A stretch of DNA of 38,242 bases from Spongiactinospora gelatinilytica. Lineage in GTDB: Bacteria > Actinomycetota > Actinomycetes > Streptosporangiales > Streptosporangiaceae. The stretch is from the NCBI RefSeq assembly GCF_003236385.1, contig NZ_POUA01000025.1, positions 1 through 38,242 on the forward strand. The letters are read 5' to 3'. The number at the start of each line of letters is the position of its first letter. Position 1 is the stretch's first letter. The notes under the pieces are model-generated. The model saw nothing but the letters and a program-made list of their open reading frames with translations. It made no database searches and had not been told where the DNA came from. The translations under genes were made by a program, and so were the position numbers. This document shows positions 10,331 through 35,822 of this stretch, one piece after another.

Positions 10331-11419
10331 TCACGCCCCGACGGTCTTGGCGTACATGCCGCTGGTCAGGTCGAAGCGGAGGGCCGCGTGGGAGGTCGAG
10401 GTCAGGATGTCCCGCCACTGGCGCTGCAAAACGCTGGTGTCCCGCTGGGCCTGGCTGCCGCCCGACTCGAACAGCCGGTTGGCCGTGGCGCGGGTCAGTT
10501 CGGCCGCCAGTGAGGCGTCACGGGCGTTGCGCGCGGCCGTCTCCGGCGTGCAGCCGCCCAGGTCTGCCATGTCCAGGGCGCGTTCGGTGACCAGGTCGGC
10601 GGCGTCCAGCTCCGCGCCCGCGCGGGCCAGGGTCTGCTGGGCGGGCGGCGGCAGGCTGCCCTCGGTCTTGGCGAGCATCGTGCCGGTCCAGGCCCGTAAC
10701 ATCGCCCGGGCCGAGCCGAGCGCCGGGGTGGCGAACAGCGGCCCGGCCACCGCGGCCAGCGGCGTCTGGTGGCAGATGGCGTCCGAGTGCTCGCTGCCGC
10801 CCTGGAGCAGGGTGCTCCACGGCACCGACCGGTGGTGCGGCACGAAGACGTCCTGGGCCACCACGCTGTTGCTGCCCGTACCGCGCATGCCCAGGTTGAA
10901 CCACGTCTTCTTGACCCGGAAGGCGTCGCGGGGCACCGCGAAGAAGCTCGGCCCGCCCGGTACGCCGACGCACAGCAGGGCCCAGTCGGAGAAGTCCACC
11001 GCGCTCAGGAAGTTCCACTCCCCCGACAGCCGCCATCCGCCGGGGGCCGCCTCCGCCGTGCCGGACGGTACGAGGGCGGCCGCGATGGCCGCGTCGGGCC
11101 CGCGCCGCCACACCTCCGCCTGCCCCTCGGGCGGGAGGTAGGCCGCCATGCGGCCGGAGGTCGCCAGGATCAGCGCGCACCAGGACGCCGACGCGCACGA
11201 CCGGCCCAGGGTGAGCAGCGCCTGGCGAAGTTCGGTGAACGTCGCCTCGTACCCGCCGTGCCCGGCGGGCACGAAGTGGCGGGCGAAGCCGGCCTCGATG
11301 AGGGCGGCGATGACGTCCTCCGACAGACGCCGCTCCTCCTCGGCCTCGGCGGCCCGCTCGCCGGCCAGTTTGGCGGCGGCGTCGGCCGCCTCGATGAGCC
11401 CGGTCTCGCTGGGTGTCAT
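10331..11419 (-). CDS. Flavin-dependent oxygenase of the acyl-CoA dehydrogenase fold
   Basis: A 362-residue protein with an acyl-CoA dehydrogenase fold, related to the oxygenase component of two-component flavin monooxygenases (HpaB/HsaA and ActVA-ORF5-like polyketide hydroxylases). Visible are the helical N-terminal domain, the middle beta domain with W.LSGEWNFLSAVDFSDW, and the FNLGMRGTGSN block that contacts flavin in these families. The catalytic glutamate of true acyl-CoA dehydrogenases was not identified. The ATG at 11419 has AAGGAG six bases upstream. It lies 11 nt downstream of the acyltransferase gene in the same transcript. The flavin reductase at 35819 is a natural partner supplying reduced flavin. 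Leu241 is a TTA codon (10697-10699). It probably hydroxylates the polyketide. Confidence 0.8.
   Translation of the reverse strand: MTPSETGLIEAADAAAKLAGERAAEAEEERRLSEDVIAALIEAGFARHFVPAGHGGYEATFTELRQALLTLGRSCASASWCALILATSGRMAAYLPPEGQAEVWRRGPDAAIAAALVPSGTAEAAPGGWRLSGEWNFLSAVDFSDWALLCVGVPGGPSFFAVPRDAFRVKKTWFNLGMRGTGSNSVVAQDVFVPHHRSVPWSTLLQGGSEHSDAICHQTPLAAVAGPLFATPALGSARAMLRAWTGTMLAKTEGSLPPPAQQTLARAGAELDAADLVTERALDMADLGGCTPETAARNARDASLAAELTRATANRLFESGGSQAQRDTSVLQRQWRDILTSTSHAALRFDLTSGMYAKTVGA
10697..10699 (-). other. Rare TTA leucine codon in the oxygenase gene
   Basis: Codon 241, in frame from ATG 11419. TTA codons are rare in such high-GC genomes and in streptomycetes depend on the bldA tRNA. 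Confidence 0.9.
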
Positions 11420-11430
11420 GGTGGTCTCCT

Positions 11431-12363
11431 TCACATCGGGGCCTTCACGGCGAAGGCGTCGGGGCCGAGCGTCACGACCGCGCTGCCGCCCGGGCGTACC
11501 GCGCGGTGGCGTCTGGCCAGCGGGGCGAGCTGGCTGAGGCAGGCTTCGACGAGCGTGTAACCCTGCCCGTCGCCGAGCAGGCCGTCGAGCGCGGGCCAGA
11601 ACAGCACCGGATCGGCCAGTTGCATCGCCCAGAACTCGGGCGTGACGGCCTCTTCCGCGGTGACCCACCGCCCGGTCCGGCACGAGCGGACGGGGATGGC
11701 CGGGGGCCGCAGGGTCATCCCGGCGAGGCAGCGCCGCAGCTCCTCGGCGGCGGGCCGCAGTACGGGACTGTGGAACGGCTGGAGCGCCCGCACCCGGCGG
11801 CACATGAGGCCCCCGTCGCGAATCGCCCGCTGGGCGGCGGTCAGCTCCGGCTCCGGGCCGGACACGATGCACTGCCGTGGCGCGTTCCACGCGCCGATCA
11901 CGACGTCCCCGCCGAGGTAGGGGGTCAGGTCATCGGGGGCGGCGGCGACCGCGAGCATGCCGCCGGGCGGCATCAGCCGCGCCGCCTCCGCCCGCCGGCA
12001 CATCAGTTCGGCGCCTTCGGCCAGGCTGAACACGCCCGTGAGCGCCGCCGCGGCCAGTTCGCCCACGCTGTGCCCGAGCAGCGCGCGCGGCGGCGTCCCA
12101 GCGTCGATCAGCGCCCGGCCGATCGCGTGATCGACCGCGAACAGCAGGGGCTGCGCGCGGGTGACATCGTCGATCGGGACCTCCGGGTCGCCGGACAGCC
12201 ACTCCTCCCGCAGCTTCGAGCCCTGCGCGCCGCAGGCGTCGAAGAACTCGTCCATCGCCGCGGTGAAGGCCGGCTGCCCGCCGTACAGTTCGGCGGCCAT
12301 GCGCGGGAACTGCGCACCCTGTCCGGGCAGGAGCAGCGCCACCGGCTGCCTGATGTCTCGCAT
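11431..12363 (-). CDS. Discrete acyltransferase (malonyl-type AT)
   Basis: A 310-residue stand-alone AT. LLPGQGAQFP lies at the N-terminus, the nucleophile Ser99 in GHSVGE, Arg residues at 123-124 that would bind the extender carboxylate, and the partner His198 in QPFHSP. The F-H in that motif fits malonyl rather than methylmalonyl selectivity. The frame extends to 12501, but the ATG at 12363 fits the family start. A SARP-type promoter ends six bases upstream of that ATG, so the transcript may be leaderless. In type II clusters such enzymes load malonyl groups or, as with ZhuC of R1128, edit acyl-ACPs during priming by a non-acetate starter. The adjacent KSIII/ACP set makes the priming role plausible. 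Confidence 0.85.
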   Translation of the reverse strand: MRDIRQPVALLLPGQGAQFPRMAAELYGGQPAFTAAMDEFFDACGAQGSKLREEWLSGDPEVPIDDVTRAQPLLFAVDHAIGRALIDAGTPPRALLGHSVGELAAAALTGVFSLAEGAELMCRRAEAARLMPPGGMLAVAAAPDDLTPYLGGDVVIGAWNAPRQCIVSGPEPELTAAQRAIRDGGLMCRRVRALQPFHSPVLRPAAEELRRCLAGMTLRPPAIPVRSCRTGRWVTAEEAVTPEFWAMQLADPVLFWPALDGLLGDGQGYTLVEACLSQLAPLARRHRAVRPGGSAVVTLGPDAFAVKAPM

Positions 12364-18830: not shown

Positions 18831-18872
18831 CCCTGGTGACAGCCGATGTCGCAGAGGGAGAGTGTGCGCCTC

Positions 18873-20138
18873 ATGGATCGACGAACCGTGATCACCGGGA
18901 TGGGGGTGCTCGCGCCCGGTGGAACGGGGACGAAGGATTTCCTGGAACTGCTGGCCTCCGGGCGGACGGCCACCCGCAGGATCTCGTTTTTCGACCCTTC
19001 GCCCTTCCGGTCCCAGGTGGCCGCCGAGTGCGACTTCGACCCGGCCGTCGCCGGGCTGACCCACCGCGAGGCCCGCCGGATGGACCGTGCCACCCAGCTC
19101 GCGGTGGTCGCGGCGCGCCAGGCGGTCGCCGAGGCCGGCATCGAGCCGGATGAGCTGGACCCGCACCGGGTCGCCGTCAGCGTCGGCACCGCCGTCGGCG
19201 CGACGACCAGCCTGGAGCGAGAGTACCTGGTCCTTTCCGACTCCGGCCGGGACTGGCTGGTCGATCCCGGCTACGCCTCACCGCACCTGTTCGACTACTT
19301 CGTGCCGAGCGCCATCGCCTCCGAGGTCGCCTGGGTCATCGACGCCGAAGGGCCGGCGGCGATCGTCTCCTCCGGCTGCACCTCCGGCCTCGACTCCGTG
19401 GGGTACGCCCACCAGTTGATCAGGGAGGGCACCGCCGACGTCGTGCTGACCGGCGCCACCGACGCGCCCATCTCGCCCATCGCCGTCGCCTGCTTCGACG
19501 CGATCAAGGCGACCACCCCGCGCAACGACGACGCCGAGCACGCCTCCCGCCCCTTCGACCTGACCAGGAACGGCTTCGTGCTGGGCGAGGGCGCGGCGAT
19601 GCTGGTGCTGGAGGAGTACGAGCACGCCCGCCGCCGGGGCGCGCACATCATCGCCGAGATCAACGGCTACGCCACCCGCTGCAACGCTTACCACATGACC
19701 GGGCTCAAGCCCGACGGCCGGGAGATGGCCGAGGCCATCACGGCCGCGCTCGCCGAGGCGGGCATGGACGGCGACGCCGTGGACTACATCAACGCGCACG
19801 GCTCGGGGACCAAGCAGAACGACCGGCACGAGACGGCGGCCTTCAAACGGGCGCTCGGCGACCACGCCTACCAGACCCCGGTCAGCTCGATCAAGTCGAT
19901 GATCGGGCACTCGCTCGGCGCGATCGGCTCGATCGAGATCGTCGCCTGCGCCCTGGCCATCGAGAACGGCCTCGTCCCGCCCACCGCCAACCTGCGCGAA
20001 CGCGACCCCGAATGCGATCTTGACTACGTGCCGATCCACGCGCGGGACCAGCGGGTGGACACGGTCCTCTCAGTGGGCAGCGGGTTCGGCGGCTTCCAGA
20101 GCGCCATGCTGCTCAGCCGGCTCGGAAACGGGGACTGA
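18873..20138 (+). CDS. Type II PKS ketosynthase alpha (KS-alpha)
   Basis: A 421-residue KS-alpha, the standard length. The active site is intact: Cys169 in SSGCTSG, His309 in NAHGSGT and His346 in MIGHSLGA. It condenses malonyl-ACP units onto the growing chain as a heterodimer with the chain-length factor encoded next. ATG 18873 gives the usual family start ([12 protein letters not shown]) and has GAGGGAG 12-13 bases upstream. ATG 18846 and GTG 18864 are in-frame alternatives; 18846 lies only ~8 nt past the predicted transcription start. It is the first gene of a 13-gene operon. Confidence 0.96.
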
Positions 20139-20139
20139 C

Positions 20140-21402
20140 ATGACGCAGACCACGATCGCCGGCGGGGCGGCACGTACGCGGCCCGCCACCGCCGTCATCA
20201 CCGGCCTCGGTGTGGTGGCGCCCAACGGGATGGGCGCGGAGGAGTACTGGACGGCGACCCTGCGCGGGGAGAGCGGCATCGCCCCACTGGGCGACCGGAT
20301 GGCGAAATATCCGGCCCGGCTCGCCGGGCAGGTCGCCTCCTTCGTCGCCGAGGAGCACATCCCCTCCAAGCTGATGCCGCAGACCGACCGGGTGACCAGG
20401 CTGGCGCTGGCCGCCGCCGAATGGGCCCTCGCCGACGCCGGGCTGCGCCCCGCCGAGCTGCCCGAGTACAGCATGGGCGTGGTCACCTCCAACGCCTCGG
20501 GCGGTTTCGAGTTCACGCACCGGGAGATCCAGAAGCTCTGGACGCAGGGACCGCAGACGGTCAGCGTGTACGAGTCCTTCGCCTGGTTCTACGCGGTCAA
20601 CACCGGGCAGATCTCCATCCGCCACGGCATGCGCGGCCCGAGCGGCGTGCTGGTCGCCGAGCAGGCGGGCGGCCTCGACGCGGTCGGCCACGCCCGCCGG
20701 GCCGTACGACGCGGCACCCCGCACATCGTCACCGGCGGCGTCGAGTCCTCCTTCGACCCGTGGGGCTGGGTCAGCCACATCGCCAGCGGCAGGCTCAGCG
20801 GCCGGACCGATCCGGCACGCGCCTACCTGCCCTTCGACGGGGCCGCCGACGGATACGTCCCCGGCGAGGGCGGCGCCATCCTCATCCTGGAGGACGCCGG
20901 GGCCGCCGCCCGGCGCGGCGCGGCCAAGGTCTACGGCGAGGTCGCCGGCTACGCCGCCACCTTCGACCCCAGGCCGGGTTCGGGCCGCCCGCCCGGGCTG
21001 GAGTACGCCATCCGCAAGGCCCTCGACGACGCGGGGGCGCGGCCGGAGACGATCGACGTCGTCTTCGCCGACGCCGCCGGCGTACCGCGGCTGGACCGGG
21101 AGGAGGCGGCGGCGATCACCGCCGTCTTCGGCCCCGGCGGCGTGCCGGTGAGCGCGCCCAAGGCGCTGACCGGCCGGCTCTACGCCGGCAGTGGCCCGCT
21201 GGACGTGGCCTGCGCGCTGCTGTGCATCAGGGACGGCCTGATCCCGGCCGTCCCCAACATCGGCGACCTGCCCGCCGACTACCGGATCGACCTCGTGCGG
21301 GGCGACGCGCCGAGGCCCGCGAAGGTCCGGAACGCCCTGGTGCTGGCACGAGGGAAAGGCGGGTTCAACGCCGCCGTCGTACTTCGGAAGGAAGCGCAAT
21401 GA
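20140..21402 (+). CDS. Type II PKS chain-length factor (KS-beta)
   Basis: A 420-residue KS-beta. The nucleophile position holds Gln175 in VAEQAGG, the classic Cys-to-Gln change of chain-length factors. The gate positions known from the actinorhodin CLF (109, 112, 116) align with Phe123, Thr126 and Ile130. The first two match the octaketide actinorhodin enzyme; the third is smaller than its Phe, which could allow a longer chain. It starts 1 nt after the KS-alpha stop and overlaps the ACP gene by 4 nt, consistent with equimolar synthesis. The chain length cannot be fixed from these residues alone. Confidence 0.95.
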   Translation: MTQTTIAGGAARTRPATAVITGLGVVAPNGMGAEEYWTATLRGESGIAPLGDRMAKYPARLAGQVASFVAEEHIPSKLMPQTDRVTRLALAAAEWALADAGLRPAELPEYSMGVVTSNASGGFEFTHREIQKLWTQGPQTVSVYESFAWFYAVNTGQISIRHGMRGPSGVLVAEQAGGLDAVGHARRAVRRGTPHIVTGGVESSFDPWGWVSHIASGRLSGRTDPARAYLPFDGAADGYVPGEGGAILILEDAGAAARRGAAKVYGEVAGYAATFDPRPGSGRPPGLEYAIRKALDDAGARPETIDVVFADAAGVPRLDREEAAAITAVFGPGGVPVSAPKALTGRLYAGSGPLDVACALLCIRDGLIPAVPNIGDLPADYRIDLVRGDAPRPAKVRNALVLARGKGGFNAAVVLRKEAQ

Positions 21403-21641
21403 CCCTGGACGACCTCCGCAGAATCATGGTGGCCTGCGCGGGCGAGGACGAGCATGTGGACCTCGCCGGGGACATCATCGACCGGACCTTCGCCGAGCTG
21501 GGATACGACTCGCTGGCCGTGATGGAGACGGCGGCGAGGATCGAGGGCGAGTTCGGGGTGAAGATCCCCGACGAGCAGGTCCCCGAGCTGGCCACCCCCC
21601 GTGCGCTGCTGGACTGCGTTTCCCGCGCGACCGTCTCCTGA
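21399..21641 (+). CDS. Acyl carrier protein of the minimal PKS
   Basis: An 80-residue ACP with the phosphopantetheine attachment Ser38 in LGYDSLAV and the usual four-helix pattern with acidic helix II. It overlaps the CLF gene (ATGA), completing the KS-CLF-ACP minimal set. It carries the growing poly-beta-keto chain. It differs clearly from the ACP at 34418, which has GLDSL and a different flanking sequence, so the two ACPs probably serve different stages. Confidence 0.95.
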   Translation: MTLDDLRRIMVACAGEDEHVDLAGDIIDRTFAELGYDSLAVMETAARIEGEFGVKIPDEQVPELATPRALLDCVSRATVS

Positions 21642-21670: not shown

Positions 21671-21991
21671 ATGATCGTCCACACCCTGATCTACCGCTTC
21701 CCCGCCACGGTGACCGAGCAGGACCAGCAGGAGTTCTTCGCCGCCATGAAGGAACTGCTGGACCGGCACGACACCATCAAGGGCTTCGACCACCGGCCGC
21801 ACCTGTGGCTGCCGGCCGACAAGGGCTCCCGCGGCATCACCGCCTCGGCCATCGCCCAGTTCAGCACCGAGTCCCTGGACGACCTCAAGACGTTCTCCGA
21901 GACGCCCGAGGTCTACGACTTCACCACCCAGTGGAAGGGCAAGCTGCAGTTCGAGGCCGCGTACGCCAACCACGAGCAGATGTCGGTCTGA
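21671..21991 (+). CDS. Dabb-family dimeric alpha/beta-barrel protein, putative cyclase
   Basis: A 106-residue protein of the stress-responsive dimeric alpha/beta barrel type: an IVHTLIYRF first strand, a helix, and a C-terminal EVYDFTTQWK..FEAAY segment. Dimers of this fold form small cavities; plant olivetolic acid cyclase is a member, and TcmI-type polyketide cyclases share the overall fold. Its place in the operon between ACP and aromatase argues for a role in chain folding or cyclisation. It has GGAACAG rather than a strong ribosome site; the gap from the ACP is 29 nt. Catalytic residues were not assigned. Confidence 0.75.
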   Translation: MIVHTLIYRFPATVTEQDQQEFFAAMKELLDRHDTIKGFDHRPHLWLPADKGSRGITASAIAQFSTESLDDLKTFSETPEVYDFTTQWKGKLQFEAAYANHEQMSV

Positions 21992-22040: not shown

Positions 22041-22526
22041 ATGCCGTACGCGGAGCACACCGTCACCGTGGACGCGTCGATCAGTGTGGTCTGGGACCTG
22101 CTGGTGGACGTGGAGGGATACGCGCGGATCTTCCCGCCCACCCAGGACGTGAAGATCATCGAGGGCGACTCGACGTACCAGATCGCCCGGTTCGTGGTGG
22201 ACGTCAACGGCGAGACCGCCACCTGGGTCTCCAGGCGGGACATCGACGCCGGGCGGCACGTCATCGCCTACCGCCAGCTTGAGACCGCGCCGATCGTGGG
22301 CCGGATGGGCGGCGAGTGGCGGGCGTTCCCGTTCGGGGCGGACCGCACCCAGCTCGTGCTGACCCACGACTTCGAGACCCGCGAGGCCGTGGACGGCAAG
22401 GTCGCCGGCCGGTTCTCCCCCGAGGAGGCCGACGCGATGCTGCACGCGGCCGTCGAGCGCAACAGCGTGGCCGACCTCAACGCGGTGAAGTCCGAGGCGG
22501 AACGACTGGTCGCGGAACCCGCATGA
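22041..22526 (+). CDS. SRPBCC aromatase/cyclase (TcmN N-domain/WhiE-VI-like)
   Basis: A 161-residue single-domain START-like protein. It has the family opening HTVTVDAS...VWDLLVDVEGYARIFP and the central WVSRRDID motif, near the WVSHR of TcmN. Such monodomain aromatase/cyclases fold and aromatise the first ring of unreduced chains (C7-C12 or C9-C14), consistent with no ketoreductase being present in the window. AAGGAG lies upstream of the ATG. It overlaps the next cyclase by 4 nt. Confidence 0.87.
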   Translation: MPYAEHTVTVDASISVVWDLLVDVEGYARIFPPTQDVKIIEGDSTYQIARFVVDVNGETATWVSRRDIDAGRHVIAYRQLETAPIVGRMGGEWRAFPFGADRTQLVLTHDFETREAVDGKVAGRFSPEEADAMLHAAVERNSVADLNAVKSEAERLVAEPA

Positions 22527-23275
22527 AGAGGTTCTACGACCTCAGCGTGGCCACGCAGAGCACGCCGAGTGAGGCTACGCCGGTGACCGTCGAACTCCTC
22601 GACCACCGCACCGGCGCGATCGTCCTCGGGCTGAACCCCGACGACTTCCCGGACGGCATGGCGATCTCCAACGAGACCGTCACGCTGACCACGCACACCG
22701 GCACGCACATGGACGCGCCGCTGCACTACGGCCCGCTGACCGCCGGCCGTCCGGCCAAGAGCATCGACCAGGTGCCGCTGGACTGGTGCCACGGCCCGGG
22801 GGTCCGGCTGGACCTGCGGCACGTCGCGGCCGGCACCGCCATCACCGTGGACCAGCTCCGCGCGGCGCTCACCGAGGCCGGGCACGCGCTGGTCCCCGGC
22901 GACATCGTGCTGCTGTGGACGGGCGCGGACGCCCTGTGGGGCGGCGCCGAGTACCTGACGGACTACGCCGGGCTGTCCGGTGAGGGCACCGAGTTCCTGG
23001 TGGAGAGCGGTGTGCGGGTCATCGGCATCGACGCCTGGGGCCTGGACAAGCCGATGCGCGCGATGATCGAGGACTACAAGCGGACGGGCGATCCGGCCTG
23101 CCTGTGGCCCGCGCACGTCTACGGGCGGCGCAAGGAGTACCTGCAGTTGGAAAAGCTCGCGAATCTGGGTGCGCTGCCCGCGGCCACCGGATTCGAGGTG
23201 TCGTGCTTTCCGGTGTCCATCGCGGGCGCCGGGGCCGGCTGGACCCGCGTGGTCGCCACCGTGGAGGAGCGTTGA
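22523..23275 (+). CDS. Metal-dependent cyclase-family protein (kynurenine formamidase-like fold)
   Basis: A 250-residue member of the PF04199 'putative cyclase' family. The metal-binding signature is clear: His58, His62, Asp64 and His68 in THTGTHMDAPLHY. Members include kynurenine formamidases, and also proteins encoded in aromatic polyketide clusters such as mithramycin MtmX, thought to act in late ring closure. It overlaps the aromatase by 4 nt and the dioxygenase by 1 nt. Hydrolase or cyclase chemistry on the polyketide is inferred. Confidence 0.82.
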   Translation: MKRFYDLSVATQSTPSEATPVTVELLDHRTGAIVLGLNPDDFPDGMAISNETVTLTTHTGTHMDAPLHYGPLTAGRPAKSIDQVPLDWCHGPGVRLDLRHVAAGTAITVDQLRAALTEAGHALVPGDIVLLWTGADALWGGAEYLTDYAGLSGEGTEFLVESGVRVIGIDAWGLDKPMRAMIEDYKRTGDPACLWPAHVYGRRKEYLQLEKLANLGALPAATGFEVSCFPVSIAGAGAGWTRVVATVEER

Positions 23276-23871
23276 TGTACCACCACACGTTCAGCAGTGT
23301 TGACAAGATCGGCAAGGGCCTGCTGCGGAGCTTCGACGAGCTGACCCCGAACACCGGGTTCAAGGACGACGACATCGTCCGGTACGTCGGGCTGGGCACC
23401 GGGCACGCCAAGGGCACCGCGGTCACCTGGAACGACGACGGCGACTCGCCTTATGACCGGCTCGGGCCCGCGGTGCGCGACTTCGTGGCCGAGCAGCTCG
23501 CCGACGACACGGTACGCGCGAAGGTGCCCGGCGAGGAGTTCCGCCTGACGGTGTTCCAGGTCCGCAACTACGCCGACGACAAGCAGATCGCCCGCCCCTC
23601 GCAGGGCTTCCACCAGGGCGGCGGCGACCATGTGCTGGTCACCGTCGTGGCGGAGGAGGACGTCAACGGGGCCGTGCACATGCTGGCCCTGGCCGAGGAC
23701 GAGTCCGCGCTGGTGTTCGAGCGCCGGCTCGGCGTGGGCGAGACGCTGCTGCTCGACGACCGGACCCTCACCCACCACTGCACGCCGTTCACCCCCAAGG
23801 CGGGCGGCCGGGCCCAGCGGGACCTGATCATCGTCTCGCTCGCCCGCACGGACGCGGAGGCCAGGGGATGA
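23275..23871 (+). CDS. Fe(II)/2-oxoglutarate oxygenase-like protein with HxG instead of HxD
   Basis: A 198-residue protein resembling the 2OG-Fe oxygenase family of L-isoleucine 4-hydroxylase (PF10014). The family motif H-x-D-G-x-D reads His113-Gln114-Gly115-Gly116-Gly117-Asp118. The second iron ligand His167 (in THHCTPF) and the 2-oxoglutarate arginine Arg182 (in QRDLIIV) are in place, so only the carboxylate iron ligand is missing. The same Asp-to-Gly/Ala change leaves room for chloride in Fe/2OG halogenases such as SyrB2, so halogenation is one possible role; a non-oxygenase role or loss of activity are others. ATG 23275 overlaps the upstream stop by one base. The residue alignment is from memory of the family. 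Confidence 0.75.
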   Translation: MYHHTFSSVDKIGKGLLRSFDELTPNTGFKDDDIVRYVGLGTGHAKGTAVTWNDDGDSPYDRLGPAVRDFVAEQLADDTVRAKVPGEEFRLTVFQVRNYADDKQIARPSQGFHQGGGDHVLVTVVAEEDVNGAVHMLALAEDESALVFERRLGVGETLLLDDRTLTHHCTPFTPKAGGRAQRDLIIVSLARTDAEARG

Positions 23872-25589
23872 CCATGACGAACTACCGCCATGACGTCGTG
23901 GTGGCCGGCGGCGGCCCCGTCGGGATGATGCTCGCCTGCGAGCTCCGCTCGGCGGGGGTGTCGGTACTGGTGCTCGAACGGCGGCCGGCCCCGGACCCGA
24001 TGCCCAAGGCGGGCATCATCGGCCCGCTGGCGGCCGAGGCGATCGCCAGGCTCGGCCTGCGCGACGAACTACTGGCCGCCGAGGCGGAGGCCACCCGCCG
24101 CGACGAGGAGATCATCGCCGCACTCATGTCCAAGGGCGGCCCCAGCGGACCTGCCGGTGCCACAGGACCCGGAGGCGGCCCTGGAGCACCCGGTCGCCCC
24201 GGAGGCCCCGGTGGACCGGGCGGCCCCGGAGGGCCATCGGCAGCCGGAAGAGGCCCTGGTGGGCCCGGTGGCTCTGGAGCATCCGGTCGCCCCGGAGGGC
24301 CGGGCGGGCCCGGTGGGCGGCCGGGCGGGATGACGCCGCCGGAGCATTTCGCCGGGCTGCCGCTGGACGCGGCGCGGTCCGCCGATCCCGCGCGCCGCCG
24401 GGTCCGGGTGGACCAGCTCACCCTGCACGGCATCCTGGCCCGCCACGCCGAACGCCTCGGCGTGGACGTCCGCCATCGGCACGAGGTCGTCGGCCTGAGC
24501 CAGGACGAGGACGGCGTGAGCGTCCACGTCTCCACCGCCGACGGGCCGATCGAGGTCCGCTGCGCCTACCTGGCCGGCTGCGACGGCGGCCGGAGTACCG
24601 TGCGCAAGCTGGCCGGATTCGACTTCGCGGGCACCGGCCCGACGCTCACCGGCCGCCAGGGCCTGGTGCGCATGGGCGACCCGGACGGCCTGCGGCCCGG
24701 CTTCAACCTGACGCCGGACGGCGGTTACCTGTTCGCCGTGTTCGGCGCGAACCGGGTGGCGACCATCGAGTTCGAGGGCCCGCCGGAGAACCGGGACGTG
24801 CCGCTGACGGCCGGGGAGCTGCAGGAGAGCGTCCGCCGGGTGAGCGGCACCGAGGCGACCATCAACGAGCTGCTGTCCGGGGTGCGCTTCACCGACCACA
24901 CCCGCCAGGCCACCACCTACCGGCTGGGCCGGGTGCTGCTGGCCGGCGACTCGGCCCACGTACACCCGCCGTTCGGCGGCCAGGGCCTCAACGTGGGCCT
25001 GGTGGACGCCGCGAACCTCGGCTGGAAGCTGGCCGCGCAGGTCCAGGGCCGGGCCCCCGAGGGCCTGCTGGACACCTACACCGCCGAGCGCCACCCCGAG
25101 GCCGCCCGGCTGCTGGACAACACGCGCGCCCAGACCGCGCTCATGCGGCCCGATGCGCAAAGCCGCGCGATGCGCGACCTGTTCGCCGGCACGCTCGGCC
25201 TCGACGCGGTCAACCGGCACCTGTACGACATGGTGACGGGCCTGTCCACCCGCTACGACGTGGGCGAGGAGGGCGAGCCCGCAGGGTCGCTGCTGGCCGA
25301 TCCGGAGCTGTCCACCGGCGGGCATCTCGCCGAGCACTTCGGCGGGGGCCGCGGGGTCCTGCTCGACCTGGCCGACCGGGCGGAGGTCCGGGCCACCGCC
25401 GCGGGCTGGTCCGGGCGCGTCACGGTCGTCACCGCCCAGGTCAAGGCCGATGCGATGGACGACCTGGACGCGCTGCTGGTCAGGCCGGACGGCTGCGTCG
25501 CGTGGGCGCTGCCCGCGGGCGCCGCGCACCGTGACCAGGCGCTGGCGGCGGCCCTGTCCAGGTGGTTCGGGCCGGGGCGCGATGGCTGA
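23868..25589 (+). CDS. FAD-dependent aromatic monooxygenase with collagen-like insert
   Basis: A 573-residue class A flavoprotein monooxygenase of the polyketide hydroxylase type. The dinucleotide fold GGGPVG is at 13-18, a CDGGRST motif lies mid-protein, and the FAD-ribose motif reads AGDSAHVHPPFGGQGLN. It would hydroxylate or rearrange an aromatic polyketide with NAD(P)H and O2. Between residues ~90 and 154 it carries a Gly-Pro-rich stretch of Gly-X-Y type that its paralogue at 26201 lacks. The rest aligns closely, so the stretch is an insert in the loop following the first FAD-domain helices. It overlaps neighbours by 4 and 8 nt. The frame is unbroken, so a functional protein is expected. 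Confidence 0.92.
   Translation: MTMTNYRHDVVVAGGGPVGMMLACELRSAGVSVLVLERRPAPDPMPKAGIIGPLAAEAIARLGLRDELLAAEAEATRRDEEIIAALMSKGGPSGPAGATGPGGGPGAPGRPGGPGGPGGPGGPSAAGRGPGGPGGSGASGRPGGPGGPGGRPGGMTPPEHFAGLPLDAARSADPARRRVRVDQLTLHGILARHAERLGVDVRHRHEVVGLSQDEDGVSVHVSTADGPIEVRCAYLAGCDGGRSTVRKLAGFDFAGTGPTLTGRQGLVRMGDPDGLRPGFNLTPDGGYLFAVFGANRVATIEFEGPPENRDVPLTAGELQESVRRVSGTEATINELLSGVRFTDHTRQATTYRLGRVLLAGDSAHVHPPFGGQGLNVGLVDAANLGWKLAAQVQGRAPEGLLDTYTAERHPEAARLLDNTRAQTALMRPDAQSRAMRDLFAGTLGLDAVNRHLYDMVTGLSTRYDVGEEGEPAGSLLADPELSTGGHLAEHFGGGRGVLLDLADRAEVRATAAGWSGRVTVVTAQVKADAMDDLDALLVRPDGCVAWALPAGAAHRDQALAAALSRWFGPGRDG
24135..24329 (+). repeat. Collagen-like Gly-X-Y coding insert
   Basis: 195 bp encode residues 90-154 of the monooxygenase, mostly Gly with Pro, Ser, Ala and Arg in triplet pattern. 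At DNA level it contains a 25-bp repeat (24181-24205 and 24274-24298, one mismatch, 93 bp apart, in frame), which suggests growth by internal duplication. Confidence 0.88.
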
Positions 25590-26187
25590 GGGCGCCCATG
25601 GGCTGCTCCTCGACGCCGCGGCGCAGGACCTGCTGTTCCGCGAGGCGCGCACGGTGGAGGCGTTCACCGGCGAGCCGGTGACCGAGGAGCACCTGCGGGC
25701 CGTCTACGACCTGGTCAAGTACGGCCCCACGTCGATGAACCAGCAGCCGCTGCGGATGGTGGTGCTGCGTTCGGCGCAGGCCAGGGCCGCGGTGGTCCGA
25801 TGGATGCTCGGCATCAACAAGACCCGTACCGCGGCGGCTCCGCTGACCGTGCTGCTCGCCGCCGACCTGCGCTTCCACGAGCGGCTGCCGGAGCTGTTCC
25901 CGGCGAAGCCGGACGCGGCGCGGCTGTTCGAGGACCCGTTCGTGCGCAAGGAGTCCGCCCGGTTCAACGCGGCCCTCCAGATCGCGTACCTCATCCTCGG
26001 CATCCGCGCGGCCGGCCTGGCCGCCGCCCCCACCCTCGGCTTCGACCCCGAGGGCATCGACAAGGAGTTCTTCGGCGACGGCGGGCACACCGTGCTGACC
26101 GTGCTCAACATCGGCAGGCCCGCCGCGACCGCCGTGCCGCCGCGGCTTCCGCGGCTGGCCTACGACGACGTCGTCACCGAGCTGTGA
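25582..26187 (+). CDS. Nitroreductase-family protein (RutE/malonic semialdehyde reductase-like)
   Basis: A 201-residue FMN-dependent nitroreductase-fold protein most like RutE-type enzymes. The segment YGPTSMNQQPLRMVVL near residues 51-66 and the late GIRAAGLAAAPTLGFD match that family. RutE reduces malonic semialdehyde, but in a polyketide operon such proteins may reduce quinones or enones. It sits between the two paralogous monooxygenases and overlaps the first by 8 nt. Its ATG at 25582 lies inside the upstream gene; the longer open frame is a shadow. Substrate not predictable. Confidence 0.82.
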   Translation: MAEGAHGLLLDAAAQDLLFREARTVEAFTGEPVTEEHLRAVYDLVKYGPTSMNQQPLRMVVLRSAQARAAVVRWMLGINKTRTAAAPLTVLLAADLRFHERLPELFPAKPDAARLFEDPFVRKESARFNAALQIAYLILGIRAAGLAAAPTLGFDPEGIDKEFFGDGGHTVLTVLNIGRPAATAVPPRLPRLAYDDVVTEL

Positions 26188-26200
26188 GGAGTGTGTCCCC

Positions 26201-27706
26201 GTGACCAACTACTTCGAGGTCGTCGTGGCGGGCGGCGGGCCCGTCGGGCTGATGCTCGCCTGCGAGCTGCGTTCGGCCGGGGTGTCGGTACTGGTCCTGG
26301 AACGGCGGGCCCGGCCGGACCAGGCGATCAAGGCGGGCTCGATGGGCCCGCTGGCCGCCGAGGCCATGTACGGCCTGGGCCTGGCCGCCGAGCTGGGCGC
26401 GGCCGAGGAGGCCGCGACGGCCCGCGACCTCGCCCTCACCGGCAAGGCCGGCGGCCCGCGCGAACACTTCGGCGGGATCTTCCTGGACCCGTCGCTGGCC
26501 TCCGACCCGGACCGCCGCCGCGTCCGCATCGACCAGCCGGAGCTGGAGGCACTGCTGGCCAGGCACGCCGACCGGCTGGGCGTGGAGGTGCGGCGCGAGC
26601 ACGAGGTGGTCGGCCTGAGCCAGGACGAGCAGGGGGTGAGCGTGCGGGTCGCCGCGCCCGGCGGCCCGCTCCAGGTCCGCTGCGCCTACCTGGCCGGCTG
26701 CGACGGTCACCGCAGCACCGTGCGTGAGTTGGCGGGTTTCGACTTCGTCGGCTCTCCGGCCGGCCTCACCGGCCGGGACGGCGTGGTACGGCTGGCCGAG
26801 TCCGAGCGGGCCAAGCTGACCCCCGGGTTCCACCACACCGAGCGCGGCGTCTTCGTGTTCGCCGGGTTCGGCGCGCAGCGGGTGGCCGCCGTGGAGTTCG
26901 ACAGCCCGCCGGACGACCCGTACGCGCCGCTCACCCTGCCGGACCTCCAGGCCGCCGTCCGCCGGGTCAGCGGCACCGACGTGGTCATCGACGAACTCGT
27001 CTCCGGCTTCGTCTACACCGACGAGGCCCGGCAGGTGACGTCGTACCGCGCCGGGCGGGTGCTGCTCGCCGGGGACGCGGCGCACATCTACGCCCCCTTC
27101 GGCGGCCAGGGCCTCAACGTCGGCCTGGTGGACGCGGCGAACCTGGGCTGGAAGCTGGCCGCGCAGGTCCAGGGATGGGCCCCCGAGGGCCTGCTGGACA
27201 CCTACACCGTCGAGCGCCACCCGGTGGGCGCGGTGCTGTTGCACAACACGCGCGCGCAGGCGGCGCTGATGCGGCCCGACCCGCAGAGCCGCGCGCTGCG
27301 CGAGTTGTTCGCCGGGCTGGTCGGCCTGGAGCCGGTCACCCGGCTCATCGTGGACATGAAGACCGGCCAGTCGGTCCGGTACGACCTGGGCGAGGCCCAT
27401 CCGCTGGTCGGCACGCTCTGCCCGGACCTGCCGCTGGGCGGCGCCGGCGGGCGGCTCCGCGAACGGCTGGGCGGCCAGGGGCTGCTGCTGGACCTGGCCG
27501 GCCGGGCCGAGGTCCACGCCGCGGCGGCGGGCTGGTCGGCCCGGGTCGGGACCGTCTCGGCGAAGGCCGGGATCGACGGCGTCGACGCGCTCCTGCTCAG
27601 GCCCGACGGCTGTGTGGCGTGGGTGCTGCCCGCGGGAGCCGTGTTCGGCGAGAAGGAACTGACCAGTGCCCTGGCGGCCTGGTTCGGGGAAGGGAGGACG
27701 GGATGA
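26201..27706 (+). CDS. FAD-dependent aromatic monooxygenase, second paralogue
   Basis: A 501-residue class A monooxygenase, usual length for the family. GGGPVG lies near the N-terminus, CDGHRST in the middle and AGDAAHIYAPFGGQGLN for FAD. It starts at GTG 26201 with GAGGAG upstream. It is a close paralogue of the enzyme at 23868, with near-identical DNA around the FGGQGLN...LLDTYT region, but has a short normal loop where the other carries the collagen-like insert. Two such enzymes suggest two hydroxylation steps, or one hydroxylation and one Baeyer-Villiger or ring-opening step. It overlaps the carboxylase gene by 4 nt. Confidence 0.93.
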   Translation: MTNYFEVVVAGGGPVGLMLACELRSAGVSVLVLERRARPDQAIKAGSMGPLAAEAMYGLGLAAELGAAEEAATARDLALTGKAGGPREHFGGIFLDPSLASDPDRRRVRIDQPELEALLARHADRLGVEVRREHEVVGLSQDEQGVSVRVAAPGGPLQVRCAYLAGCDGHRSTVRELAGFDFVGSPAGLTGRDGVVRLAESERAKLTPGFHHTERGVFVFAGFGAQRVAAVEFDSPPDDPYAPLTLPDLQAAVRRVSGTDVVIDELVSGFVYTDEARQVTSYRAGRVLLAGDAAHIYAPFGGQGLNVGLVDAANLGWKLAAQVQGWAPEGLLDTYTVERHPVGAVLLHNTRAQAALMRPDPQSRALRELFAGLVGLEPVTRLIVDMKTGQSVRYDLGEAHPLVGTLCPDLPLGGAGGRLRERLGGQGLLLDLAGRAEVHAAAAGWSARVGTVSAKAGIDGVDALLLRPDGCVAWVLPAGAVFGEKELTSALAAWFGEGRTG

Positions 27707-29307
27707 CCGCACTCGACGAACGCGCCCCCGCCCGGCTCGGCGAGCCCGATATGCGCGGGCGAGTGGAGGAGCTGGCCGGGCTCAGGGAGCGGGTCGTGGA
27801 AGGCCCCGGCGCGAAGAGCACGGCCGCGCAGCACGCCAAGGGCAAGCTCACCGCGCGCGAGCGCATCGATCTGCTCTTCGACAAGGACTCGTTCACCGAG
27901 ATCGAGCCGTTCCGGCTGCACCGGGCCCGCGGCTTCGGCCTGGAGGACAAGCGGCCCTATTCCGACGGGGTGGTGACCGGCTGGGGCGAGGTGAACCAGC
28001 GCAAGGTCTTCGTCTACGCCCACGACTTCCGGATGTTCGGCGGGGCGCTCGGCGAGGCGCACGCCGAGAAGATCCACAAGCTGCTGGACCTGGCCGAGGC
28101 GACCGGGGCGCCGGTGGTCGGCCTGTGCGACGGCGCCGGGGCGCGGATCCAGGAGGGCGTCACCGCCCTCGCCGGGTACGGCGGGATCTTCCAGCGCAAC
28201 GCCCGGATGTCCGGCGTGGTCCCGCAGATCAATGTGATCATGGGGCCGTGCGCGGGCGGCGCGGCCTACTCCCCCGCCCTGACCGACTTCGTGTTCATGG
28301 TGCGCGGCACGGCCCAGATGTTCATCACCGGTCCCGACGTGGTGCAGGCCGTGACCGGGGCCCAGGTGACGCACGCCGAACTGGGCGGGGCCGACGTCCA
28401 CGCGAGCGTGTCGGGGGTGGCGGCCTTCGCCTACGACGACGAGGAGGAGTGCCTGGCCGCGGTACGCGACCTGCTGGCCTACCTGCCCGCCAACAACCGG
28501 GAACTGCCGCCGGACGAGTCGCCCGGTGACTTCCTGAGCGACCCGGCGGGCCGGCGCAACGACAGGCTGCTGGACCTGGTGCCCGCCGACCCGAGCCGGG
28601 CCTACGACATGCGCGAGGTGATCGAGGAGATCGTCGATCACGGCGACTTCATGGAGGTCCACGCCGCCTGGGCCACGAACGTCATCTGCGCGTTCGCCCG
28701 GCTCGGCGGGCGGGTCGCGGGCATCGTGGCCAGCCAGCCGGCCTCGCTCGCGGGCGTGCTGGACATCGACGCCTCCACCAAGGCGGCCCGCTTCGTGCAG
28801 ACCTGTGACGCCTTCAACATCCCGCTGCTCACGCTGGTCGATGTGCCGGGCTTCCTGCCGGGGGTCGAGCAGGAGCACGGCGGGATCATCCGGCACGGTG
28901 CCAAGCTGCTGTACGCCTACTGCAACGCCACGGTGCCGCGGATCCAGATGATCCTGCGCAAGGCGTACGGCGGGGCGTACATCGTGATGGACTCGCGCTC
29001 GATCGGGGCGGACCTGTCGTACGCCTGGCCGACCAACGAGATCGCGGTGATGGGCGCGGAGGGCGCGGCCAACGTGATCTTCCGCAGGGAGATCGCCGCG
29101 GCGGCCGACCCGGAGGCGGTACGGGCCGAGCGGATCGCCCAGTACCGCAGGGAGCTGATGCACCCCTACCACGCCGCCGAACGCGGTCTCGTGGACGACG
29201 TGGTGGACCCGGCCGACACCCGGCGCACGCTCATCCGCGCGCTGGAGATGCTGGCCGCCAAGCATCAGCCGCTGCCCTCCCGCAAGCACGGCAACCCGCC
29301 GTTCTGA
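27703..29307 (+). CDS. Acyl-CoA carboxylase beta subunit (carboxyltransferase)
   Basis: A 534-residue carboxyltransferase of the AccB/PccB type. The acyl-CoA and biotin oxyanion-hole glycine pairs are recognisable (GPCAGGAAYSPAL near 181-193, and the RKAYGGAY block). The residue that sets substrate range in Streptomyces coelicolor (Asp422 in PccB, Ile in the acetyl-accepting AccB) is Ile427 in AYGGAYIVMD, so acetyl-CoA should be accepted and malonyl-CoA made. ATG 27703 overlaps the monooxygenase stop. With the epsilon and alpha subunits downstream it forms a complete enzyme placed to feed the PKS. Confidence 0.93.
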   Translation: MTALDERAPARLGEPDMRGRVEELAGLRERVVEGPGAKSTAAQHAKGKLTARERIDLLFDKDSFTEIEPFRLHRARGFGLEDKRPYSDGVVTGWGEVNQRKVFVYAHDFRMFGGALGEAHAEKIHKLLDLAEATGAPVVGLCDGAGARIQEGVTALAGYGGIFQRNARMSGVVPQINVIMGPCAGGAAYSPALTDFVFMVRGTAQMFITGPDVVQAVTGAQVTHAELGGADVHASVSGVAAFAYDDEEECLAAVRDLLAYLPANNRELPPDESPGDFLSDPAGRRNDRLLDLVPADPSRAYDMREVIEEIVDHGDFMEVHAAWATNVICAFARLGGRVAGIVASQPASLAGVLDIDASTKAARFVQTCDAFNIPLLTLVDVPGFLPGVEQEHGGIIRHGAKLLYAYCNATVPRIQMILRKAYGGAYIVMDSRSIGADLSYAWPTNEIAVMGAEGAANVIFRREIAAAADPEAVRAERIAQYRRELMHPYHAAERGLVDDVVDPADTRRTLIRALEMLAAKHQPLPSRKHGNPPF

Positions 29308-29486
29308 TGGACATCCGCCTCTCCGGCGCCGAGCTGACCGAAGAAGAGCTCGCCGCCGTGGTCATCGCGCTGCTCGCGGGGTCGCGGGCGCGGCCCGCGG
29401 CCCACCGGGTCCCGCTGCGCCGGCGGCCCACGCGCCTCCCCGTACCGGGCTACCACTCCCCCAGATCATGGAGAACACGTGCATAA
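29307..29486 (+). CDS. accE: Acyl-CoA carboxylase epsilon subunit (small)
   Basis: A 59-residue frame. It opens [22 protein letters not shown] and ends with [11 protein letters not shown], the pattern of actinobacterial AccE/PccE: a short N-terminal strand and helix, a Pro/Arg-rich linker and a terminal SPRSWR-type tail. Epsilon subunits stabilise and stimulate the alpha-beta carboxylase complex. Its ATG overlaps the beta-subunit stop by one base and its end overlaps the biotin carboxylase GTG by 8 nt, so all three are translationally coupled. It is easily missed in annotation because of its size. Confidence 0.85.
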
Positions 29487-31233
29487 GGTGCTTATCGCCA
29501 ATCGTGGTGAGATCGCCGTACGCGTCGCTCACGCCTGCCGCGACGCCGGGATCGCCGGAGTCGCCGTCTACGCGGAACAGGATCTGGACGCCCTGCACGT
29601 CCGGGTGGCCGACGAGGCGTACGCGCTGGGCGGGCGTTCGGCGGCGGAGACGTACCTCAACGTGGAGCGGCTGCTCGACGTGGCCGTGCGCGCGGGGGCC
29701 GACGCGGTGCATCCCGGCTACGGATTCCTGGCCGAGAACGCCGACTTCGCGCAGGCCGTCATCGACGCCGGACTCACCTGGATCGGCCCGCCCCCGCGGG
29801 CCATCCGGCTGCTCGGCGACAAGGTGCGCGCCAGGGAGATCGCGCGGACCGTCGGCGCGCCGCTCGCGCCCGGCACGTCCGGCCCGGTGTCCGGCGCGGA
29901 GGAGGTCGTGGCCTTCGCCCGCGAGCACGGCCTGCCGGTGGCGATCAAGGCGGCGCACGGCGGCGGCGGTCGCGGCATGAAGGTGGCCAGGACCATCGAG
30001 GAGATCCCGGAGTTGTACGAGTCCGCGGTGCGCGAAGCCGAGGCGGCCTTCGGGTCCGGCGTGTGCTTCGCCGAGCGGTACCTGGACCGCCCCCGCCACC
30101 TGGAGACCCAGTGCCTGGCCGACACGCACGGCATCGTCGTGGTGGTCTCCACCCGCGACTGCACCCTGCAACGGCGGCACCAGAAGCTGGTCGAGGAGGC
30201 TCCCGCGCCGTTCCTGCCGGCCGGGGAGACCCGGCGGCTCATCGACGCCTCCAAGGCGATCCTGCGGGCGGGCGGCTACGTCGGCGCGGGCACCTGCGAG
30301 TTCCTGATGGGGGCCGACGGGACGATCACCTTCCTGGAGGTGAACACCCGCCTCCAGGTCGAGCACCCGGTGAGCGAGGAGGTCTCCGGCATCGACCTGG
30401 TGCGCGAACAGCTCAGGATCGCCGCGGGCGACCGGCTCGACCAGGGCGACCCGCCCGTGCGCGGGCACTCCATCGAGTTCCGGATCAACGCCGAGGACCC
30501 GGGGCGCGGCTTCCTGCCCGCGCCGGGCACCCTCACCCGGCTGCGGCTGCCCACCGGGCCCGGCGTGCGCGTCGATCTCGGCTACGCCGAGGGGATGACC
30601 GTCCCCCAGACGTTCGACTCGCTGATCGCCAAGGTGATCGTCACCGGCCGGGACCGGGCCGAGGCCCTGGCCCGCGCCCGGCGGGCGCTCGGCCACTGCG
30701 AGTTCGCCGGGATGCCCACCGTGCTGCCCTTCCACCAGGCCGTCGTGAACGACCCGGCGTTCGCGCCCGCCGGCCCGGCCGAGCCGTTCACCGTCCACAC
30801 CCGGTGGATCGAGACCGAGTTCGCCGGGCTGATCCCCCCGTACGACGCCGAGCCCGAGCAGGAGACCCCGGCCGGGCGCGAACTGCTCACCGTCGAGGTG
30901 GGCGGGCGGCGGGTCGCCGTCTCACTGCCCGCCGGATTCGCGGCGCCGGCCGCCACCGCCGCCCGCCCGGCCGAGGCCCGGCGGCGCAAGGCCGGACGCA
31001 AGCCGGTGGCCGGGGGCGACACGCTGGTGAGCCCCATGCAGGGCACGATCGTGCGGGTGTTCGTCGCCGACGGGGACGCCGTCCAGGAAGGGGACAGCCT
31101 GCTGATCCTGGAGGCCATGAAGATGGAACAACCGCTCGCCGCGCACAAGGCCGGCGTGGTCAGGGGGCTGGCGGCCGAGGTGGGGCAGACGGTCGCGGGG
31201 GGCGCGGTGCTGTGCGAGATCGTGGCCGCCTGA
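29479..31233 (+). CDS. Acyl-CoA carboxylase alpha subunit (biotin carboxylase with BCCP)
   Basis: A 584-residue fusion. The biotin carboxylase domain (about 1-450) has the ATP-grasp glycine loop HGGGGRGMK and the [14 protein letters not shown] catalytic segment. A Pro/Ala/Arg linker follows, then a biotin carboxyl carrier domain with Lys548 in EAMKMEQP. It carboxylates its own biotin using ATP and bicarbonate for transfer by the beta subunit. It starts at GTG 29479 ([12 protein letters not shown]). It is the last gene of the core operon, ending 2 nt before the convergent large SARP gene, with no clear terminator between. Confidence 0.95.
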
Positions 31234-34417: not shown

Positions 34418-34678
34418 TCACGGCGCTACGCCGGCCAGCCTTCCGTTCACATAATCCAGCACCATCCGTGCCGTGGCCATCTGGTCCACGTCGTCATCGG
34501 GGATCGGCAGCCGCAGTTCCTCCTGAATAACCGTGACGACCTCATATCTGGCCAGCGAATCCAGGCCGAGTTTCTCGAAGGGGGTGTCCGCGGACTCCTC
34601 GGTGAGCTCGGCCGCCTCCGAGGCGCCCAGGCACTTACCGACAACGCGCTTCAGGTCATCGAGCGTGAACTTCTGCAT
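34418..34678 (-). CDS. Second acyl carrier protein (starter-unit ACP candidate)
   Basis: An 86-residue ACP with attachment Ser41 in LGLDSLARYEV. It lies next to and divergent from the KSIII gene and far from the minimal PKS. Paired ACP/KSIII genes serve non-acetate priming in clusters such as R1128 and frenolicin, so a starter role is inferred. The ATG at 34678 sits seven bases after the -10-like hexamer of the SARP-type promoter, implying a leaderless mRNA. An in-frame GTG at 34687 overlaps that hexamer and is less likely. No ribosome site is visible. The large SARP follows in the same direction. Confidence 0.9.
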   Translation of the reverse strand: MQKFTLDDLKRVVGKCLGASEAAELTEESADTPFEKLGLDSLARYEVVTVIQEELRLPIPDDDVDQMATARMVLDYVNGRLAGVAP

Positions 34679-34685
34679 GTCCGCC

Positions 34686-34728
34686 ACGATCGCCCGCGGC
34701 CTTGGAAGAACCCTTGAGAAGGACTCGA
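34686..34728 (-). promoter_or_regulatory. SARP-type promoter of the second ACP and large SARP
   Basis: Minus strand: TCGAGTC (34728-34722), TCAAGGG (34717-34711) and TCCAAGG (34706-34700) at 11-bp period; 8 nt; -10-like GATCGT (34691-34686). The ACP ATG follows after seven bases. Confidence 0.72.
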
Positions 34729-34820: not shown

Positions 34821-35822
34821 ATGACCAGCCAGCTTCTGGCGGCCCCGCGAACACACTGCCGCATTCTCGGATTGGGCGTGCACCGGCCGCCGCGCGCGGT
34901 CGCCAACAGCGAGATATGCGAGTGGATCGAATCGTCGGAGGAATGGATCGTCAGCCGATCCGGAATCCGCTCGCGCCGGTTCGCCGGCAAGGACGAGACC
35001 CTGGAGGCGATGGCCGTGTCCGCCGGCCGCGCGGCGCTCCGGCACGCGGGCGTCACCGCCGACCGGGTCGGCTGCGTCGTGGTGGCCAGCATGTCCAACC
35101 TGGTGCAGACGCCGCCGCTGGCCGTCAGGGTCGCGCACGACCTGGGGGCGCTCGACGCCGGCGGCTTCGACGTGTCGGGGGCCTGCGCGGGCTTCTGCCA
35201 CGCCCTGGCCGTCGCCGCCGACATGGTCTCCACGGGACAGTCCACATACGTGCTGGTCATCGGTAGCGAGCGGATGACCGACATCGTCGATCCCACCGAC
35301 CGGACGATCTCCTTCCTGTTCGCCGACGGCGCGGGCGCCGTCCTGGTGGGTCCATCCGACCGGCCGGGCATCGGCCCCGCGGTCCGCGGGGCCGACGGCG
35401 CCTCCCGGGAGGCGCTGCGGATGAACACCACATGGGACGCCTTCCGCGCCGATCCGACGCTTCCGCCGCCGATGATGAAGATGGACGGCCGCAGGGTCTT
35501 CCGCTGGGCCGTGGAGCACATGGTGCCAGCCGGGCTGCGGGCGCTGGCCGGCGCCGGGATCGACCAGCACGACCTGGCGGCGTTCATCCCGCACCAGGCC
35601 AACATCCGCATGATCGAAATCCTGGCCGCCAAGCTGGAGCTGCCCGATCACGTCGCGGTCGCCGGTGACGTCGCGGTCAGCGGCAACACCTCGGCCGCGT
35701 CCATCCCGCTCGCCATGGACGCCCTGCTCCGCGACGGCCTCGCGCCGCCCGGCGGGGCGGCCCTGCTGCTGGGCTTCGGCGCGGGCCTCAACTACGCCGG
35801 TCAGGTCGTGCTCCTGCCATGA
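34821..35822 (+). CDS. Ketoacyl-ACP synthase III (KASIII/FabH-like), starter condensation
   Basis: A 333-residue KASIII with a complete catalytic triad: Cys122 in VSGACAGF, His258 in IPHQANIRM and Asn289 in SGNTSAAS. This contrasts with daunorubicin DpsC, which lacks the cysteine. In type II clusters an active KASIII (ZhuH, FrnI, BenQ) condenses an acyl-CoA starter with malonyl-ACP. The ATG at 34821 has AAGGAGG 12 bases upstream; the open frame from 34533 is a shadow. It overlaps the flavin reductase by 4 nt. The acyl starter cannot be read from the sequence. Confidence 0.93.
   Translation: MTSQLLAAPRTHCRILGLGVHRPPRAVANSEICEWIESSEEWIVSRSGIRSRRFAGKDETLEAMAVSAGRAALRHAGVTADRVGCVVVASMSNLVQTPPLAVRVAHDLGALDAGGFDVSGACAGFCHALAVAADMVSTGQSTYVLVIGSERMTDIVDPTDRTISFLFADGAGAVLVGPSDRPGIGPAVRGADGASREALRMNTTWDAFRADPTLPPPMMKMDGRRVFRWAVEHMVPAGLRALAGAGIDQHDLAAFIPHQANIRMIEILAAKLELPDHVAVAGDVAVSGNTSAASIPLAMDALLRDGLAPPGGAALLLGFGAGLNYAGQVVLLP

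Follow-up and report, generated by a model that had tools for sequence, protein, structure and literature searches.

A PF10014 protein with an HxG iron motif, a candidate Fe/2OG halogenase, in an R1128-like type II polyketide cluster of Spongiactinospora gelatinilytica

Two Fe/2OG halogenases that carry HxG in place of the usual iron motif, SecA (PMC12171316) and the plant enzyme DAH (PMC12346261), are described as lying inside clades of HxD/E enzymes, and a 2026 preprint uses HXG/A as a marker of this type of halogenase (PMC12871659). The motif is also present in human AspH, a HXG...H hydroxylase that was not found to halogenate (PMC10947486, PMC13168262); FIH in which Asp was changed to Gly is reported to retain some activity (PMC10947486), and the change of Asp to Gly or Ala in prolyl 4-hydroxylase reportedly did not result in a halogenase (PMC2767507). 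In the family PF10014, HilB and IDO are described as hydroxylating amino acids (PMC3684760) and TqaL as making an aziridine (PMC10764440). In the literature searched, most of it outside subscription journals, we found no PF10014 protein reported to be a halogenase. With regard to polyketides, the R1128 pathway is described as having an initiation module that primes with an alkyl-acyl group, its cyclases ZhuI and ZhuJ acting on an unreduced octaketide (PMC340942, PMC5059770).

Here we analyzed a stretch of 38,242 nucleotides of S. gelatinilytica (contig NZ_POUA01000025.1, hereafter the window), which encodes a small PF10014 protein, P0001. Its sequence makes it a serious, if tentative, possibility that P0001 is a folded Fe/2OG enzyme of this family and a candidate aliphatic C-H halogenase, which an R1128-like type II PKS pathway took over from a lineage of enzymes that oxidise amino acids.

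The polyketide cluster around P0001

Table 1. Features of the window, with positions counted from its first nucleotide.
Feature	Coordinates	Strand	Remarks
Acyl-CoA-dehydrogenase-fold protein	10331..11419	-	probably a flavin hydroxylase
Acyltransferase (AT)	11431..12342	-	
Ketosynthase alpha	18846..20138	+	
Ketosynthase beta / chain length factor	20140..21402	+	
Acyl carrier protein (ACP)	21399..21641	+	
Dabb-domain protein	21671..21991	+	Pfam 25.1 bits, cut-off 25
Aromatase/cyclase	22041..22526	+	best PDB match 3tfz ('Cyclase'), E 7e-60
PF04199 cyclase	22523..23275	+	Pfam
P0001	23275..23871	+	198-aa PF10014 protein, HxG replacing HxD; reading frame uninterrupted (translation)
HQGGGD	23611..23628	+	residues 113-118 of P0001; Gly115 codon 23617-23619, iron-Asp position
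His167 of P0001	23773..23775	+	distal iron histidine (translation, alignment)
Arg182 of P0001	23818..23820	+	expected 2OG-carboxylate arginine; role inferred from family
FAD hydroxylase 1	23868..25589	+	Pfam
Nitroreductase-family protein	25582..26187	+	Pfam
FAD hydroxylase 2	26201..27706	+	Pfam
Acyl-CoA carboxylase, two genes (carboxyltransferase, biotin carboxylase/carrier)	27703..31233	+	
Second acyl carrier protein	34418..34687	-	
KSIII, starter-unit ketosynthase	34821..35822	+	
Flavin reductase	35819..36301	+	

P0001 lies in a type II PKS cluster, in line with an earlier, sequence-only reading, and the cluster has syntenic counterparts in two Nonomuraea species. We tested 29 proteins of the window, and 25 of them (10331 to 38170) have syntenic homologues in both Nonomuraea genomes at 66-95% identity; the TetR, AlkA-like, LacI and amidohydrolase proteins had no syntenic homologue in either of them, LacI having a distant 31% match in one. 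The best PDB matches of the two ketosynthase subunits are the actinorhodin pair, and the match of the aromatase/cyclase, 3tfz, is presumably ZhuI. The gene set typical of R1128 is thus present, comprising a minimal PKS together with KSIII, a second ACP, an AT and a ZhuI-like cyclase, and by gene content the cluster is of the R1128/rubrolone layout; an alkyl-primed product of anthraquinone type would be typical of a bimodular R1128-type cluster. A ketoreductase was not detected among the 16 proteins scanned with Pfam, most other genes being judged by eye. As candidates for tailoring we consider the two FAD hydroxylases, the nitroreductase-family protein, the acyl-CoA-dehydrogenase-fold protein and the flavin reductase. 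Since the window is the whole contig, the cluster may continue past its ends.

Given the KSIII, second ACP and AT genes, an alkyl-primed product is predicted, as described for R1128 (PMC340942), and by analogy with this cluster type an sp3 alkyl side chain is suggested as the target of P0001. The start codon of the P0001 gene overlaps the stop codon of the PF04199 cyclase gene (TGATG) and its stop codon overlaps the start of FAD hydroxylase 1 (ATGA), so that P0001 and both neighbours look translationally coupled.

Two further genes of the cluster deserve mention on their own account. FAD hydroxylase 1 contains, at about codons 90-155, an insertion that resembles collagen, is rich in Gly and Pro and varies in length; the protein has 573 aa in the window and 533 aa in Nonomuraea sp. 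SYSU D8015 (L008:10601-12202), and in N. ceibae (L007, frame from 10591) the insertion is also shorter than in the window copy. Among the 14 genes of the cluster that were compared, the Dabb-domain gene evolves fastest, with dN/dS values of 0.47 and 0.53.

Iron site, relatives and predicted fold of P0001

P0001 matched the Pfam family PF10014 (2OG-Fe_Oxy_2) over residues 87-187 with 63.3 bits (cut-off 23.1), while NCBIfam gave no match up to E 1. Translation confirmed the residues named by the sequence-only reading, H-Q-G-G-G-D at 113-118, His167 and Arg182, and its placing of Gly115 on the iron-Asp position of the family held in the phmmer and BLASTP alignments. Phmmer against the PDB paired Gly115 with the Asp of HHDGHE in 9dq0 and 8jms. 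Outside the orthologue group, P0001 has its best full-length relatives in P0004, encoded on a plasmid of Streptomyces sp. NBC_00557 (HRDGFD, 33% identity), and in the product of the L099 gene (L153:8991-9584; HQDGFD, 32% identity); BLASTP aligned both to P0001 free of gaps from the first His through D118, and Gly115 therefore takes the Asp position, and D118 corresponds to an acid present in these HxD proteins too. In alignment A2 (14 rows) His167, Arg182 and Asp183 fall on invariant columns. P0001 thus has Gly where the PF10014 motif HxD has Asp, and another Asp or Glu as iron ligand is unsupported, none aligning on the iron position by phmmer, A2 or BLASTP. The resulting pattern, HxG/A alongside a retained distal His and 2OG Arg, is that of the Fe/2OG halogenases, and it is equally the HXG...H motif of the AspH-type two-His oxygenase.

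The statement that just the carboxylate was lost and all else kept proved too strong. P0001 has a gap of 15-17 residues at the stretch around SEEVNTYAGGIERRF of P0004 (alignments including A2, and BLASTP), and the N-terminal PF10014 block missing there contains a Q, N, GG and R that are typical of the family. Changes in A2 also affect the Glu in P-E-G-x-H and, in the later GG, the second Gly.

A scan of genome contigs, which requires matches to short peptide patterns, yielded two orthologues, in N. ceibae (74% identity) and in Nonomuraea sp. SYSU D8015 (78%). Both carry HQGGGD and neither has HxD, so an isolated mutation or a sequencing error at the motif was rejected. The three HxG proteins share His113, His167 and Arg182 without exception, and likewise D118, E127 and E128. 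Their longest invariant run spans residues 108-128 (21 positions, shuffle P 0.008), and the invariant positions amount to 27/28 in 108-135, 27/29 in 155-183, 12/13 in 87-99 and 45/86 in 1-86. The dN/dS of the P0001 gene was 0.43 and 0.40 in the two pairwise comparisons, second highest in both among 14 cluster genes (range 0.11-0.53; of the 25 shared genes, these 14 were covered, with FAD hydroxylase 1 in part). The gene is under purifying selection, though among the faster ones of the cluster.

P0001 gave matches at E 0.001 in 6 of 198 genomes of relatives, own genome included, and at the same threshold the gene was absent from two genomes of the same genus (G001 and G002). With alignment A1, 4 of 396 genomes of the phylum matched, namely the own genome and three weak matches, and 5 of 54 Nonomuraea genomes, namely the two known orthologues and three weak matches. 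PLSDB returned nine records up to E 10, P0004 being the one full-length match, and the viral contigs searched held no relative of either P0001 or P0004.

The iron-Asp site was then tallied across the family. In the 130 rows of PF10014 that show a residue there, it is Asp in 125, Gly in three (P0001 and its two orthologues) and Ala in two. These derive from 134 rows, 131 after dropping L024-L026, which are the genes of the HxG trio again; the rows are partly non-independent (P0004 and L100 are one gene, as are L022 and L062, and L053-L056 are identical), and the 89 new ones, 29 loci given and 60 fetched, are part of the matches of one search.

The two Ala rows, L049 (G534:C1:2533716-2534288) and L092 (G903:C9:69437-70009), are identical at 184 of 191 positions and read HRAG. 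Judged by eye, the genes around L049 resemble smpB, ftsX and prfB; the family block at the N-terminus of L049 is degenerate. With these housekeeping-like surroundings the pair seems decayed, and it was set aside as a second halogenase lineage. Other departures were seen in the family: L031 (G259:C10:267983-268285), a PF10014-like protein, retains none of the iron histidines, L131 (G1146:C1:382955-383530) has Tyr for the first iron His (YRDG), and L053-L057, from IMG/VR viral contigs, encode a canonical-looking protein (HRDG) with Met in the 2OG-Arg column.

A tree of 54 rows (including a random draw of 25; midpoint root; 14 named rows consisting of duplicates, fragments and outlying subfamilies were left out, as were short or identical rows) placed the HxG trio in one clade (100/100), joined successively by P0004 (90/72), L099 (100/99) and L017 (96/90), and all three of these nearest relatives are HxD proteins. 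In both P0004 and L099 the next gene overlaps and encodes a PLP aminotransferase, which suggests recruitment from amino-acid oxidation; on this sequence evidence the simplest history would be that a PF10014 enzyme oxidising amino acids was taken over by a polyketide pathway, with loss of the carboxylate and of the block.

An AlphaFold model of P0001 reached a mean pLDDT of 76.9 and a pTM of 0.81. Its input was the three HxG sequences plus core fragments of two viral HxD PF10014 proteins, which may bias it towards the family fold; the three HxG sequences alone gave a pLDDT of 33.6. The best structural matches were BelL (8jms, Z 18.3, rmsd 3.4, 187 aligned) and HrmJ (9dq0, Z 18.0; 9dqp, 17.0), followed by a bsmA homologue (15.9), 8w8h (15.8), IDO (15.0) and TqaL (14.7); the best nine are all PF10014 (Z 18.3-14.7), the next match has Z 12.7, and Foldseek agrees. 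Known halogenases were not among the 50 structural matches listed for the model, and the 8 PDB sequences that the PF10014 profile matched at E values up to 10 included no characterised halogenase. The weaker blocks are residues 101-120 (pLDDT 54, 64), 131-150 (58, 63), 161-170 (65) and the C-terminus (57), and the motif (64) and the distal His (65) both lie in them. The structural check that had been proposed for P0001 thus came out in part: the model supports the PF10014 fold, but its confidence near the motif is too low for it to support the iron-site geometry as well.

Halogenation and the other possible activities

As a halogenase, P0001 would hold Fe(II) by His113 and His167, with 2OG chelating the iron and its far carboxylate resting on Arg182, as expected from the family. 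Chloride or bromide would occupy the site vacated by the change of Asp to Gly115; O2 and decarboxylation would lead to a halo-oxo-ferryl species, which would abstract a hydrogen atom from an sp3 carbon, and halogen rebound would give C-Cl. The likely target would be the alkyl side chain contributed by the KSIII/ACP/AT initiation module. In its most explicit form, which we put forward with some hesitation, P0001 could be the first radical halogenase of the PF10014 fold, derived from an amino-acid oxidase by the change of Asp to Gly plus the block deletion, and acting on the sp3 alkyl chain of an R1128-like polyketide, perhaps cryptically en route to a cyclopropane or other ring.

This assignment draws on the replacement of the iron Asp by Gly while both His and the Arg are retained, on the same HQGGGD in both orthologues, on conservation that is highest at the active site together with purifying selection, on the synteny of 25 of 29 genes in two species, on a model whose nearest structures are PF10014 enzymes, and on the alkyl-primed product predicted from the KSIII, second ACP and AT genes. 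We know of no product of this cluster, which counts against it. Precedents are offered by SecA, DAH and the HXG/A marker (PMC12171316, PMC12346261, PMC12871659). The halogenase candidate of the sequence-only reading stands as regards HxG, with no other Asp/Glu aligned and HxG orthologues, whereas halogenation is still what we infer from it, and is weakened by the reported hydroxylation by AspH with HxG, the partial activity of FIH with Asp changed to Gly and the unconverted prolyl 4-hydroxylase. It is also weakened by the weak model at the motif and distal-His blocks, by the two same-genus genomes lacking the gene, and by the second-fastest dN/dS and the missing block, which would also fit a protein freed from catalysis.

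The same motif would suit an AspH-type two-His Fe/2OG oxygenase, in which water or a polyketide oxygen fills the empty site and the reaction is a halide-free hydroxylation, desaturation or ring closure. We consider this somewhat unlikely. AspH itself, described as having HXG...H and water at the vacant site, hydroxylates (PMC10947486, PMC13168262); the structures nearest to P0001, BelL and HrmJ, are of ring-closing enzymes that form cyclopropanes, as TqaL forms an aziridine (PMC10764440), and hydroxylation of amino acids is reported for other members of PF10014 (PMC3684760). Yet in five alignments the named ring-closing and hydroxylating PF10014 structures keep HxD. Moreover, to our knowledge, two-His oxygenation has no precedent in a bacterial biosynthetic cluster.

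Less probable still, and in our view unlikely, is a non-catalytic or repurposed protein that binds the polyketide or a partner in a chaperone-like or cyclase-like manner, free of redox chemistry. Loss of the carboxylate ligand and of the 15-17 residue block would agree with it, as would the rank of its dN/dS among the 14 genes and the separate HxA pair L049/L092, which appears decayed among housekeeping-looking genes; but His113, His167 and Arg182 are invariant in the trio and conservation is strongest in the stretches of the active site, which would not be expected had metal and 2OG binding been left to drift. Finally, an ordinary 2-His-1-carboxylate oxygenase with its carboxylate elsewhere is very improbable: D118, three residues on, and E127/E128 are invariant in the trio, but the alignment from His113 to D118 is free of gaps, D118 is the acid that HRDGFD and HQDGFD have besides their ligand, and E127/E128 sit at the far end of the strand predicted at 119-128.

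If P0001 halogenates, a further Fe/2OG family would have turned halogenase independently, and the natural HxD and HxG relatives of 32-33% identity would probe what the change of Asp to Gly alone lacks, a question raised by the reported failure of that change in prolyl 4-hydroxylase (PMC2767507). Should P0001 be a hydroxylase, bacteria would have in it an equivalent, acting on a small molecule, of AspH with its unusual two-His site. On either reading, the search for new products has a defined target in this cluster.

Comparison with known systems

The R1128 and rubrolone clusters, as described, share with this one the KSIII/second ACP/AT module, a ZhuI-like aromatase/cyclase and the minimal PKS; the rubrolone oxygenases named in the relevant part of the report are P450, ActVA-orf5-like and luciferase-like (PMC5059770), an Fe/2OG enzyme not being among those named there. 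BelL and HrmJ, the best structural matches, align with P0001 at the distal His and the 2OG Arg but keep HxD and the N-terminal family block, and their reported substrate is an amino acid, 6-nitronorleucine, which is cyclised to a nitrocyclopropane (PMC10764440). P0004 and the L099-type proteins are closest in the tree and of the same length class, whereas they have HxD and their neighbour is a PLP aminotransferase gene and not a PKS. Human AspH shares with P0001 the HXG...H motif and two histidines; however, it is reported to hydroxylate EGF-like domains of proteins, with water at the vacant site (PMC13168262). SecA, DAH, SyrB2, WelO5 and BesD belong to families other than that of P0001, and like P0001 they are described as having HxG or HxA in place of HxD/E.
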